A stretch of 64,000 bases of DNA from Rhodococcus pyridinivorans. GTDB lineage: Bacteria > Actinomycetota > Actinomycetes > Mycobacteriales > Mycobacteriaceae. The position numbers and the translations under genes are program-made. The stretch is from the NCBI RefSeq assembly GCF_900105195.1, contig NZ_FNRX01000002.1, forward strand, positions 744,001 to 808,000, in the 5' to 3' direction. Below are positions 46,731 through 64,000 of the stretch, piece after piece. Positions within the stretch are counted from its first letter, which is position 1. Each line of letters opens with the position of its first letter. The notes under the pieces are model-generated. The model had not been told where the DNA came from, made no database searches, and saw nothing but the letters and a program-made list of their open reading frames with translations.

Positions 46731-47615
46731 TCACGGCGTCGTTGTCTCGATCCACTCTTCGTAGAATGGCGGCATGGCTGAGGCCTTGTCGTGGAACTCG
46801 GGTGGGCGTTTGTCGCGGAATGCCTGCACTCCCTCGGCGCCGTCGCCGATGCTGGTGTAGAACATGGCCAGCGAATCGACGCGGTGGGCATCTGCGGGGT
46901 GAGCAGCGGCCGCGTTTCGCAGCAGCATCTGGCGCATCAGGGCCACCGAGACCGGTGAGCGGTCGCGGGTCCAGGCATTCGCCAACGCGCGCGCTTCGCT
47001 GAGCAACATCTCGGGTTCATGGAGCGCCTGCGCCAACCCGTCGATGTATGCGACCTCGGCGTTGAGGATCTCTGCCCTATAGACCAGATTCAGCGCAGTG
47101 GGCATGCCGACGAGCCGAGGAAGGAACCATGTCGAGCACGCTTCGGGCACTATTCCGAGTTTGCCGAACACCAGGCCGAACCGCGCTCGGGTCGACATCA
47201 GGCGCGCGTCCATCGCCAGCGTCATGGTTGCACCGATTCCGACGGCCGCGCCGTTGATTGCGGCGATCACCGGTTTACGGCAGGCATGGATTGCGAGGGT
47301 GACGCGGCCGCCTGTGTCGCGGATCCGGCGCAATTCGGGGTCGTCGAGATTCTTCATGTCGGCAAGAGTGGGGCGTTTCGACTCGTCGAGCCCGAACACA
47401 TTCCCTTCACTCGACAGGTCCATGCCGGCGCAGAAAGCGCGCCCTGCTCCGGTGACGATCACGGCCCGGACCGTGTCGTCGTCGTTCACCGACACGAAGG
47501 TGTGCTCGAGTTCGTCGGCCATCTCGACGGTGAACGCATTGAGACGGTCGGGGCGGTTGAGGACCACGGTGAGGATGCCGTCCTCGACTTCGTGGCGAAG
47601 GGTGGTGTATTCCAT
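46731..47615 (-). CDS. Enoyl-CoA hydratase/isomerase family protein
   Basis: A 294-residue crotonase. The CoA-binding/oxyanion segments are VIVTGAGRAFCAGMDLSSEG and PVIAAINGAAVGIGATMTLA. The acidic position falls in KLGIVPEACSTWFLPRLVG. The ATG at 47615 (MEYTTLRHEVEDG) is chosen; the longer frame has a non-homologous extension. Third gene of a minus-strand set with the nitronate monooxygenase-like and SMP-30 genes. Likely hydrates an enoyl-CoA in the island's beta-oxidation. Confidence 0.93.
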   Translation of the reverse strand: MEYTTLRHEVEDGILTVVLNRPDRLNAFTVEMADELEHTFVSVNDDDTVRAVIVTGAGRAFCAGMDLSSEGNVFGLDESKRPTLADMKNLDDPELRRIRDTGGRVTLAIHACRKPVIAAINGAAVGIGATMTLAMDARLMSTRARFGLVFGKLGIVPEACSTWFLPRLVGMPTALNLVYRAEILNAEVAYIDGLAQALHEPEMLLSEARALANAWTRDRSPVSVALMRQMLLRNAAAAHPADAHRVDSLAMFYTSIGDGAEGVQAFRDKRPPEFHDKASAMPPFYEEWIETTTP

Positions 47616-47634
47616 GACTTCTCCCGTCTGCCTG

Positions 47635-48615
47635 TCAGGCGAGGTCGGCGGCAATCCTGCGGATGGCGGCTTCGGCATCGCTCACGATGTCCGAGATGAT
47701 CGTCTTGCAGGGAAGCACGGCATCGATGAGACCTTGGGATTGACCTGCCCACCACATGCCGTCTTCCATGTTCCCCTTCTCCAGCACTTCCGTTCGGCCG
47801 CGTACCCCGGAGGCGAGGTGTGCGACGTCGGAGAACGTGGCGTCAGGGCGGGCGGAGAGGGCTGCGATCGTCTCGGAGATGGAGTTGCGGGCCACACGTG
47901 CGGTATTACGGAACTCTCGGAACACGAGGATGGTCTGGCGTTCGTCGTTGGCAACGATCTGGGCCTTGACGTTCGGATGCACGGGAGCTTCGTCGCTGGC
48001 CACGAACCGGGTGCCCATGTTGATTGCGGATGCGCCGAGGGCCAGTGCTGCGGCCAATCCGTCGCCGGTGGCGAATCCGCCACTGGCGATGATCGGGATG
48101 TCGAGCACGCGCGCTGCGGCGGGGATGAGGATCAGGCCGGGGATGTCCTCGTTGCCGGGGTGGCCGGCGCACTCGAACCCGTCGATACTGACGGCGTCGA
48201 CACCCATGGACTGTGCTTTGATCGCGTGCCGGACCGCTACCGCTTTGTGGATGACCTTGATCCCGGCGGCTTTGAACGCCGCCACATGTTCTTGGGGGTT
48301 GCTGCCGGCGGTTTCCACGATGGTGATACCGCTGTCGATGATCGCGGCCCGGTAGTCGTCGTACGGCACGGGAGTGACGGTGGGCAGCAGGGTGAGATTG
48401 ACACCGAACGGCTTATCGGTCATTTCCCGGCACCGGGCGATCTCAGCGACGAGAGCTTCGGGGGTGGGTTGCGTCAGCGCGGTGAGAAAACCCAAACCCC
48501 CGGCATTGGCCACCGCGGAGATCAGCTCCGCGGTGCCGACCCCGGTCATGCCACCGCACACCACCGGGTGCTCGATCCCGAAAGTGTCGGTGAAACGTGT
48601 GCGCAGCACGATCAC
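47635..48615 (-). CDS. Nitronate monooxygenase family flavoprotein
   Basis: A 326-residue FMN-dependent TIM-barrel protein of the 2-nitropropane dioxygenase/NMO family. Segments: [39 protein letters not shown] (with the catalytic-type His), [31 protein letters not shown]. The GTG start overlaps the SMP-30 stop (GTGA). In catabolic clusters such proteins often act as enoyl- or quinone reductases rather than on nitronates, so the true substrate is open. Confidence 0.9.
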
Positions 48616-49511
48616 GGCCTCCCTGCGTGCGGAACGTCGACTCTCGTCGAGAGGACCTTGGCTTCACGCGCAGCGCTGCGCTTGGCTTCGTCGAAATCCG
48701 GTGCGACCGAGAGAAATAGTGTGCGACCGTCATCGCCACCGAGCGCGACCGCGAACACTCCCAGCGGAGCCGTACTCACCTCGTCCAGGATGGTTCCGCC
48801 TTCGGCCAGGCGTACGGCACGTTGGTTGACGCAGTCGGCAATCCAGATGGCACCTTCAGCGTCGAGGGCCTGACCATCAGGTGCAATCGTGCACGCTGCA
48901 AGCCGCTTCTCCACGCTCGGCTCGTCGCCGAGATCGCCGAACGAGGCGAAGTCCTGACGGGGGCCGAGTGTGCCGTCCGGTTCGATATCGAATCGGGAGA
49001 CGCGGTTGCCGAACAGTTCGTTGACGTACAGCGTTCTTCCGTCCGGGGAGATGCACATGCCGTTCGGGAAGGACAATCCTTCGGCTGCGACTCGGGAAGT
49101 GCCGTCGGTGTCGACGAGGACGACAACGCCGTGCTCGTGGTCGGCTCCTCCCATGAGATCGAATCCGAACTCGCCGACGTATGCCTGCCCGTTCGCGGCG
49201 ACCACCATGTCGTTGGCGTGACCGTGGCAGTGTTCGGAGATGTCGGCGTGCTCGACGAGTGAGCCGTCGGGTTCGCGGCGCAGGACTTTGCGGTCTTTCA
49301 TCGAGACGACGAGCATGCGCCCGTCGGGAAGCCATCCGAGTCCGGACGGCTGGTGTTCGACGGTGCAGACCTGTTCGATGGATCCGTCGGCGTTCACGGC
49401 ATTGACCGAGTGGGTGTAGAAATCCACGAACCACAGTCGGCCCTCGTGCCACCGAGGTCCCTCGGTGTAGGTGAATCCTGTTGCGACTTCCGTCATTGGA
49501 CGACTTGTCAT
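48612..49511 (-). CDS. SMP-30/gluconolactonase-like lactonase
   Basis: A 299-residue six-bladed beta-propeller hydrolase. Typical pieces are [20 protein letters not shown] (metal Glu), [20 protein letters not shown] (metal Asn), [20 protein letters not shown] (Asn) and [12 protein letters not shown] (Asp). AAAGG precedes the ATG by 8 bases. In this setting it is a candidate for opening a lactone made by the Baeyer-Villiger enzyme at 54.7 kb. First gene of a three-gene minus-strand unit, divergent from the CoA ligase. Confidence 0.92.
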
Positions 49512-49743
49512 GGGAGTACCTTTCTTCCGGCGCTCGTTGCCCGCTGGGCTCGGCCGGTGTCGGCCGGGCGCCTATGCGGGTGAGGTGGCTCCAGTCTCGG
49601 GATCCTCACGGCGGTCGAGGTGTCCCACAACGCAACAGTGCGGACGAGTTCATCGGGCGCTGTCGCAAATTCGGACGGTTCGGTGCCAGGGTTGGTGTGC
49701 AGGCTGGTCGTACCCTCGCTCACCTGATCCGGAGGAATGCGCC

Positions 49744-62843: not shown

Positions 62844-62950
62844 GGTCACTCCTTGAGTGGGATAAGGGATGTGAAACGGTGCGGATATTCAGGAGAATGC
62901 GCACTTTAGAACGCTAGAAGCAGGGATGAGGTCACCAGTGTCCTATTTTG

Positions 62951-62962
62951 CAACACCTGTTG
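62951..62962. promoter_or_regulatory. CAACA-CC-TGTTG palindrome upstream of YCII gene
   Basis: A 12-base palindrome about 110 bases upstream of the YCII start. It resembles the CAACA elements ahead of the first hydrolase. Weak evidence on its own. The rest of 62850-63118 shows no gene. Confidence 0.3.
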
Positions 62963-63118
62963 GTGAACGACGGCGAATATAGAACGGAGAGAACGCGATC
63001 GGCGTTGAACGGCCGGACGACGGTGTGGCTTGCATACGGTCGGTGACCTTGCCGGCAGCTGTGTGTGGAACCAGCTCTGCTGGTAGGCATGGCCAAGATC
63101 CGCCGTGCAGGTGAGCTG

Positions 63119-64000
63119 TTACTCGGGCAGTGCCCCGGCGGCGCGCAGCTGCTCGATATCGTCTTCGAGAAGTCCGAGTTCTGTTAGCACAGTATCGGTA
63201 TCGGCGCCACGGTCGCGCGGCCCGAACCGCACAGCACCGGGGGACCCAGCGAGTTTGACGGGTACGCCGAGACCCCGGTAGCCGTCACACTCGACCACCA
63301 TCTCGCGGTGACGGACCTGCGGTAGCGAAAGGGCCTCTCCGACATTGTTCACCGACCCCGACGGTACGCCGGCTCGCCGTAGCAGGGCCGCCAAAGCTTC
63401 GCGCTGCCAAGTTTTGACGAGGCCGCCGAGGATGTCGCGCAGTTGAGCTGCGTTTGCCATCCGGTCGGAGTTGGTGACGAATCTCGGGTCGTCGGCCAGG
63501 TCTGAAGCGTCGAGCGCCACGACCAGAGCGCGGAATTGCCGGTCGTTGCCGGCACCGATGAAGAAGGGGCCATCGGCGCAGGTGAACGTTTCATAGGGAC
63601 AGATCGTCGGGTGTGCCACGCCCGTCCGCTCCGGCGCGACGCCGGTGGCAAACCACTTGCCGGCGTGTGGGTGCAGGATCGACACAGCGTTGTCGAGTAG
63701 TGCCAGATCCACGAGTTGCCCGCGTCCGGTCTTTTGCCGCACGTGAAGTGCCATGAGGATGCCGTTCACAGCGTTGAGACCCGTGATGATGTCGACCAGA
63801 GGGATCCCGATCCGCATGGCATCACCGTGGGGCTCACCGTTGATGCTCATCAGCCCCGACAAGGCTTGGAGAATTGCGTCGTAGCCGGGAGCACCACCGA
63901 GCGGCCCGTCGACTCCGTACCCGGTGATTCGACAGTGCACGAGTCGCGGGAATTCGGCGGCGAGCACGTCGTCGTCGAGTCCCCACTTCGCAAGGGTGCC
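63119..64000 (-). CDS. Class III (CaiB/BaiF-type) CoA-transferase, 5' part outside window
   Basis: At least 293 residues are visible; the frame is open to the window edge (GTLAKWGLDDDVLAAEFPRL V). The segments HCRITGYGVDGPLGGAPGYD AILQALSG, VDIITGLNAVNGILMALHVR and WFATGVAPERTGVAHPTICP are typical of formyl-CoA transferase relatives. The C-terminal half ends LLEDDIEQLRAAGALPE. Full members are about 390-400 residues, so roughly 100 N-terminal residues, including the catalytic Asp region, lie beyond the edge. It would move CoA between acids, an alternative to the ligase for substrate activation. Confidence 0.92.
   Translation of the reverse strand, partial: GTLAKWGLDDDVLAAEFPRLVHCRITGYGVDGPLGGAPGYDAILQALSGLMSINGEPHGDAMRIGIPLVDIITGLNAVNGILMALHVRQKTGRGQLVDLALLDNAVSILHPHAGKWFATGVAPERTGVAHPTICPYETFTCADGPFFIGAGNDRQFRALVVALDASDLADDPRFVTNSDRMANAAQLRDILGGLVKTWQREALAALLRRAGVPSGSVNNVGEALSLPQVRHREMVVECDGYRGLGVPVKLAGSPGAVRFGPRDRGADTDTVLTELGLLEDDIEQLRAAGALPE

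Follow-up and report, generated by a model that had tools for sequence, protein, structure and literature searches.

The right-hand end of a 64,000-nucleotide stretch of Rhodococcus pyridinivorans DNA (hereafter the window; contig NZ_FNRX01000002.1, G000:C2:744001-808000, genome of 5.26 Mb) was found to contain a gene cluster which we read, with rather better than even confidence, as the left part of a horizontally acquired three-module catabolic island for alicyclic ketones. The island is real, mobile, co-conserved and catabolic, and its genes are of known kinds; they form three parallel putative ring-opening modules, each of which can be read as a Baeyer-Villiger monooxygenase (BVMO) accompanied by a hydrolase, a CoA-activating enzyme, an acyl-CoA dehydrogenase, a crotonase and a regulator of its own. 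The island probably enables its Rhodococcus host to cleave cyclic ketones and to use the products as fuel in the manner of fatty acids. Because named strains carry the three BVMOs on plasmids, each with enzymes for the later steps and a regulator, the substrate and the pathway are directly testable. Gene classes were assigned by Pfam/NCBIfam, for some queries from a start codon upstream of the one listed here, and positions beyond 64000, termed extended, carry on the numbering of the window.

BVMO1 of module A was found to be 69% identical, over 529 aligned positions, to Q9FDI3, cyclohexanone monooxygenase 2 of Brevibacterium sp. HCU. In a tree of 21 rows, which agrees with the reading of an earlier note on this DNA, BVMO1 and a Gordonia relative were placed as sister to Q9FDI3 (fork 97/94), which is the one named reference for a position in the cycloalkanone clade. 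A cyclic ketone is the best reading because of this identity and grouping with Q9FDI3, which we take to be active on cyclohexanone and to come from an experimentally studied strain. The likeness to the Brevibacterium enzyme was found for BVMO1, whereas BVMO2 and BVMO3 (47% and 44% identical to Q9FDI3) were placed in groups of their own outside the Q9FDI3 group. The type I fingerprint FxGxxxHxxxWP/D and both GxGxxG (Rossmann) motifs were present in BVMO1 and BVMO3, and the fingerprint of BVMO2 was found to depart from the consensus (YRGELVHTARWR). The fingerprint was conserved in 118 of the 120 BVMO1 relatives listed from 1928 proteins at E 1e-150, and several of those listed were automatically named cyclohexanone or cyclopentanone monooxygenase.

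Module A was found to contain ECH1, a PA1024-type flavoprotein, SMP30a, LIG1, a regulator, ACAD1 and BVMO1, followed by the presence of NudC2, a Dabb protein, HSL1, ECH2, HSL2, a YCII protein, a CoA-transferase, an aldehyde dehydrogenase, BVMO2, an IclR regulator and ACAD2a/b in module B and of a tandem TetR protein, BVMO3, ECH3, ACAD3a/b, LIG2 and SMP30b in module C (Table 1). The putative lactone hydrolases belong to the SMP-30 and HSL families, both with their motifs, those of SMP30a being presumably metal ligands, and some HSL2 relatives were automatically named monoterpene epsilon-lactone hydrolase. All the gene classes that the earlier note had named at 46.7-64 kb were recovered in place by Pfam or NCBIfam; its inventory had passed over NudC2, and the gene set, which it had described for the last ~17 kb of the window, was found to continue to ~91 kb. 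The extension beyond 64 kb that it had recommended yielded two further BVMOs, two acyl-CoA dehydrogenases of a putative two-subunit type, and one more copy each of the ligase and the SMP-30 class.

The stretch 46500-64000 was covered to 99-100% by five named Rhodococcus plasmid records at 97.4-97.6% DNA identity in 3-5 pieces, followed by the presence of the next 20 kb after the window at 99.5% identity and of 9 kb around module C at 98.3-99.0% identity, in each case on five Rhodococcus plasmids; the remaining 12 database records matched 46500-64000 partly (2-54% covered). Plasmid BX2 keeps an identical gene order, the gene set of G123 lies on a contig of 808,879 bases, and pieces of A and B were found on two draft contigs of G176 at 87-98% identity. 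Versions of the modules, largely intact and for the most part 45-93% identical at the protein level, recur elsewhere in a different order: pDK3 and R. koreensis have module A by itself, the G230 chromosome and G023 have it with a variant of B, the NJ-530 plasmid and a single 88-kb contig of G204 have B together with C, and a 20-kb contig of Gordonia G090 has module C. The survey of conservation suggested in the earlier note is answered by these plasmids and recurrences, and the gene grouping goes beyond chance because the whole stretch is found on five plasmids and the module versions recur in other orders. Relatives of BVMO1 of at least 60% identity were found in 9 of the 251 family genomes, a count that rises to 11 when every match above the search threshold is taken, relatives of BVMO3 at E 1e-190 in 2 of 397 order genomes with the own genome counted, and all three BVMOs in 3 of 18 genus genomes, namely the present one, G166 and G123. 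In Rhodococcus sp. DK17 a match to module A was present on two separate plasmid records (H7, H9).

The module variants were found to differ in detail. The BVMO of the B variant in G230 was 50% identical to BVMO1 and 47% to BVMO2, which makes it another BVMO among the same neighbours; in the combination of G230 and G023 the match to ACAD1 was weak or fragmented. Relatives of BVMO1 and SMP30a were found together in 2 of 4 non-Rhodococcus loci, in Gordonia hydrophobica (L020), with no flavoprotein match and an ACAD1 match of only 27%, and in Granulicoccus (L021), where the stretch matched neither LIG1 nor ECH1 nor the flavoprotein. ACAD3a was matched at E 1e-100 in 8 of 11 genomes or records, the others being G172, G023 and G176. 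Within the 20 kb read, G237 contained a C variant alone, and a second contig of G090 carried ACAD2a/b as a pair without any BVMO. More distant clusters in G214 and G186 contained a BVMO, a ligase, an SMP-30 protein, an aldehyde dehydrogenase, ECH2 and ACAD2a/b, that of G214 with a zinc-type alcohol dehydrogenase; three related clusters contained such dehydrogenases, which counts in favour of the alicyclic-ketone reading.

The ketone gene set sits near the left end of a ~189-kb insertion that is missing from three relatives. The chromosomal alignment to G135, G166 and G068 was found to end at 45448 and to pick up again at extended 234410 in all three, which gives the size of the insertion, and its flanks overlap by 6 bases in the relatives, leaving a clean empty site in 3/3. 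The window flank was 95% identical to G166, and BX2 and G166 were counted once. The GC content, in 5-kb steps, was 0.65-0.68 upstream of 45 kb and 0.61-0.64 across 45-65 kb, and a DDE transposase gene was located ~1 kb within the right edge. The island is probably a horizontally acquired block of transferable genes. Integration at a tRNA was rejected: no tRNA was found in the 64-kb window, and the ten 20-kb extension stretches contained a single tRNA-His, ~15 kb within the right edge, so that neither edge carries one. An Rfam scan of the window gave no match.

The three modules may well be, at a little short of an even chance, independent pathways for different ketones that were assembled on one plasmid region by transposition, with no joint pathway; this is compatible with cyclic-ketone substrates and competes only with a joint stepwise reading. 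The modules occur alone or in varying pairs, each has a distinct type of regulator (AAA+/Fis in A, IclR in B, tandem TetR in C), an IS256-type transposase lies directly left of the region on BX2, and duplicated DNA borders modules B and C. The adjacency of A with a B variant, and of B with C, in several contexts may argue the other way.

For the alicyclic-ketone island, we infer every reaction, substrate and order of steps from the gene content. In module A, BVMO1 would insert an oxygen beside the ring ketone, the SMP-30 lactonase would open the lactone and LIG1 would convert the hydroxy or oxo acid to its CoA ester, followed by ACAD1 and ECH1, which would begin beta-oxidation, while the PA1024-type flavoprotein would reoxidise NADH. 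The same route would be served in module B by BVMO2, the two HSL esterases or lactonases, the aldehyde dehydrogenase, the CoA-transferase and a two-subunit acyl-CoA dehydrogenase, and in module C by BVMO3, the second SMP-30 protein, LIG2 and a second two-subunit dehydrogenase. The route proposed in the earlier note, from ketone to lactone, ring opening, CoA activation and beta-oxidation, fits these genes and has gained strength for cyclic ketones, its reactions being still predicted ones; a terpenoid-like ketone, also named in that note, is a possible substrate. We think that module A serves a simple cycloalkanone and modules B and C bulkier or methyl-branched ring compounds. The top solved matches of ACAD2a and ACAD3b were Tcur3483 and Tcur3481, two subunits of one solved enzyme, in a comparison that covered one subunit of each adjacent pair and gave modest scores (149.6 and 80.5 bits); this pair, which we take to be a steroid-type heteromer, may point to bulky CoA esters in modules B and C, and the methylmalonate-semialdehyde dehydrogenase to methyl branching in the product. 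Neither this enzyme nor the ACAD pairs fix the substrate.

Several findings weigh against alicyclic ketones or against joint action of the modules. By score, the top solved match of BVMO1 was 6jdk (637 bits), an enzyme presumably of Parvibaculum and no cyclohexanone enzyme, followed by PAMO (423), CHMO (377), STMO (362) and OTEMO (348), and BVMO sequence is a poor predictor of substrate. Among the genes classified at 46.7-91 kb there was no thiolase and, with an Fe-alcohol dehydrogenase only, no clear ketone-forming alcohol dehydrogenase; the earlier note had thought that missing parts might lie outside the window, where aldehyde dehydrogenase, Fe-alcohol dehydrogenase, methylmalonate-semialdehyde dehydrogenase and two BVMOs did come to light. 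The other 2 of the 4 non-Rhodococcus loci (L022, L023; BVMO 35% identical) contained no SMP30a relative, and module B of NJ-530 and G204 had no match to HSL1 or HSL2 and carried SMP-30 in their place. The B and C variants lie ~0.2 Mb apart in G230, and each module has a separate regulator, so that joint action is no more than a possible reading.

The HSL hydrolases and the aldehyde dehydrogenase would be equally suited to linear ketones. Subterminal oxidation of linear or methyl ketones, in which a BVMO would form an ester, an HSL esterase would release alcohol and acid, and aldehyde dehydrogenase and beta-oxidation would follow, is nevertheless unlikely: against the two HSL hydrolases and the aldehyde dehydrogenase stand a pair of putative SMP-30 lactonases, the CoA ligases of modules A and C, dehydrogenases of a putative two-subunit type resembling those that act on bulky CoA esters, and the kinship of BVMO1 with a named cyclohexanone monooxygenase.

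NudC2, an NADH pyrophosphatase, was found to be a second genomic copy, 56% identical to the other NudC at C2:2170926. At E 1e-60 NudC was matched in 206 of the 251 family genomes, and a copy at least 76% identical to NudC2 was found in eight of them, the next listed being 61%. Island genes (HSL1, Dabb, the regulator or BVMO1) were present within 1.5 kb of the NudC2-type copies in 8 of 8 loci (L076-L083) and in none of the remaining 22 of the 30 NudC loci fetched. The eight genomes all fall within the nine with BVMO1 relatives of at least 60% (hypergeometric 2.6e-14, a value overstated since the genomes are related). The NudC of NJ-530 was 73% identical over 90% of a shortened query, and G172 contained a BVMO1 relative without NudC2. 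Module A of pDK3 has no NudC in the annotated stretch, so that NudC2 goes with module B and not with BVMO1 as such. That a second NudC accompanies these clusters points to a possible role of cofactor maintenance in BVMO catabolism. Mycobacterial NudC is described, in the part of the source available, as breaking down isoniazid- and ethionamide-NAD adducts (PMC3283747), and no literature joining NudC with Baeyer-Villiger chemistry was found among the matches listed; a link of NudC2 to BVMO chemistry, drawn by analogy, is speculation. It would belong to a reading in which the island takes apart a polycyclic, methyl-branched (terpenoid-like) compound by successive Baeyer-Villiger oxidations, each module dealing with a single ring or carbonyl, and in which NudC2 would be a dedicated cleaner that clears NAD(P) adducts or excess reduced cofactor from the BVMO and dehydrogenase steps, much as the mycobacterial enzyme acts on drug-NAD adducts; we regard this combination as unlikely.

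A tailoring or biosynthetic BVMO cluster of the PtlE type, instead of catabolism, is very improbable and was rejected on score: PtlE is the top NCBIfam match of BVMO1, but it scores only 199 bits where the cut-off is 1100, the genes classified at 46.7-91 kb include neither a terpene synthase nor a polyketide synthase, and the neighbours are CoA-dependent degradation enzymes. A P450 as first enzyme was likewise rejected. The P450-TetR pair of the window (25500-26879, 26975-27595) has a counterpart close to module B in G204/G230, at 86-87% and 81% identity, which had made it a candidate for the missing hydroxylase; this proximity is probably coincidence. The P450 looks chromosomal because 16 of the 18 genomes of the genus have a match to it and because, of the 8 genomes (own genome counted) whose copy reaches at least 82%, 5 had no BVMO3 match.

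Among known systems, the chn/cpn pathways share with the alicyclic-ketone island a BVMO, a lactone opening that is putative in the island, an aldehyde dehydrogenase and CoA activation; unlike them the island contains SMP-30 and HSL candidate lactonases, three BVMOs, two-subunit acyl-CoA dehydrogenases and NudC2. The limonene/carveol lactone pathway of R. erythropolis DCL14 presumably shares a BVMO and an HSL-family lactone hydrolase, whereas no limonene-specific gene was found among the island genes classified and the matching names are automatic annotation. The solved matches Tcur3481/3483 and 4x28 of ACAD2a/ACAD3b belong to steroid catabolism, and the island genes are likewise adjacent and paired; unlike in steroid catabolism, no steroid ring genes were found among the classified neighbours.

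No pathway for the island emerged from the literature searched on clusters with BVMOs, on locus tags of RHA1 and on the catabolic setting. Of the RHA1 tags ro06679, ro06698, ro08137, ro06687 and ro06693, only ro06687 was found in the literature searched. As far as the available parts of the sources go, ro06687 stands in a table on TAG metabolism that also contains ro06680 (PMC2667194), 22 RHA1 BVMOs were cloned and expressed (PMC3915288, PMC6801914) and assayed on 39 substrates (PMC6801914), the physiological substrates of BVMOs are widely unknown (PMC4498894), and the transcriptome of R. opacus 1CP contains BVMO clusters and styrene-induced BVMOs (PMC13101518) which could not be mapped to modules A-C. 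The plasmid of R. rhodochrous ATCC BAA-870 is reported, in the part of the paper available, to have an 82.5-kb genomic island containing crotonases, four acyl-CoA dehydrogenases, two aldehyde dehydrogenases and a 5-valerolactone hydrolase, and to carry three 'cyclopentanone monooxygenases' and a monoterpene epsilon-lactone hydrolase (PMC6941271). Plasmid CP032676 was found to hold the window stretch at 97.4% identity together with both following segments, and we infer that it is the ATCC BAA-870 plasmid and that the 82.5-kb island is the present one. Some of the genes of what is apparently this island have thus already been published as a gene list, which in that part of the paper comes without pathway, module structure or NudC link (PMC6941271); the earlier note's view that the combination matches no nameable cluster is softened to this extent.

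Table 1. Features of the island with positions in window or extended numbering
Feature	Module	Position	Strand	Match or remark
Left insertion edge, non-coding or degraded remnant		45449..46300	(.)	frames broken; ORF 45459-46259 without Pfam match
ECH1, crotonase/enoyl-CoA hydratase	A	46731..47615	-	PF00378 150 bits; NF006109 444.5 bits, cut-off 320
NMO-fold flavoprotein, PA1024 type	A	47635..48615	-	PF03060 194 bits; PDB 2gjl/6e2a 442 bits
SMP30a, SMP-30/gluconolactonase-family putative lactonase	A	48612..49496	-	PF08450 153 bits; EG, ND, NG, DG motifs
LIG1, AMP-forming acyl-CoA ligase	A	49744..51324	+	PF00501 242 bits, PF13193
REGa, AAA+/Fis regulator, DhaR-like	A	51490..53199	+	PF02954, AAA lid; without GAFTGA
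ACAD1, acyl-CoA dehydrogenase	A	53342..54487	+	three ACAD Pfam domains
BVMO1, type I BVMO	A	~54628..56343	+	fingerprint FAGECYHTARWP; PDB 6jdk 637 bits; 69% to Q9FDI3; start ~54697 as annotated on plasmid BX2
NudC2, second NADH pyrophosphatase paralogue	B	57206..58132	-	NF001299 294 bits, cut-off 158; PF09297, PF00293
Dabb-domain protein	B	58206..58502	-	PF07876 53.7 bits
HSL1, HSL-family hydrolase, LipP1 type	B	58934..59866	+	NF058653 354 bits, cut-off 350; HGGG, GDSAG
ECH2, crotonase	B	~60294..61094	-	PF00378 196 bits; 266-aa start per BX2 annotation
HSL2, HSL-family hydrolase	B	61261..62166	-	PF07859 160 bits
YCII-domain protein	B	62559..62843	-	PF03795; second copy at extended 88493
Class III CoA-transferase, crosses window edge	B	63119..64000	-	PF02515 254 bits; continues in L011/L012
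Aldehyde dehydrogenase	B	extended 64601		
BVMO2	B	extended 66090		match to solved BVMOs
IclR regulator	B	extended 68630		
ACAD2a/b, acyl-CoA dehydrogenases	B	extended 69611, 70762		
Fe-alcohol dehydrogenase		extended 72003		
Methylmalonate-semialdehyde dehydrogenase		extended 73174		682 bits, cut-off 448.5
LysR		extended 74779		
Tandem-TetR protein	C	extended 76266-77399 (L012:12266-13399)		two TetR DNA-binding domains in one chain
BVMO3	C	extended 77830		match to solved BVMOs
ECH3, crotonase	C	extended 80913		
ACAD3a/b, dehydrogenases	C	extended 81692, 82845		
LIG2, ligase	C	extended 83951		
SMP30b, SMP-30	C	extended 85650		
YCII copy		extended 88493		
Regulator copy		extended 89034		

The regulator of module A, REGa, was matched piecewise by sigma-54 activator models. 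A motif scan found no GAFTGA-like motif in it, and the sigma-54 DNA-binding family PF04552 gave 0 matches in this genome, with positives in 4 of 14 controls, on which grounds sigma-54 activation was rejected. Its gene was found to be split into three frames in R. koreensis and pDK3 (L019 7172-8667; L025 19956-21451), where the neighbouring enzymes appear intact, and to be duplicated in the present genome as an inverted repeat of ~1.75 kb (51489-53232 and extended 89001-90747, 98.6%). The YCII gene is also duplicated (62544-62976 and extended 88477-88908, 87.7% over 440 bases). Full-length relatives of the tandem-TetR regulator were found beside module C in NJ-530 and Gordonia G090 (55-56%).

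The flavoprotein of module A had been called nitronate monooxygenase-like; its closest solved relative is PA1024 (2gjl, 6e2a), by far the better match at 442 bits against 189 for FabK and 85-104 for other chains labelled nitronate monooxygenase. PA1024 is now described, in the part of the source available, as an NADH:quinone oxidoreductase (PMC10033279).

Extended 155951-157549 and 159168-160922 (L016) were found to hold a fourth, divergent BVMO, 37-41% identical to BVMO1/BVMO3, and near it a regulator 34% identical to that of the island. Close to the right end of the insertion, at extended ~224.4-231.1 kb (L148), a P450, a reductase of the 2Fe-2S type, a protein with a glyoxalase fold and one of the acetaldehyde dehydrogenase type may make up a further catabolic cluster.

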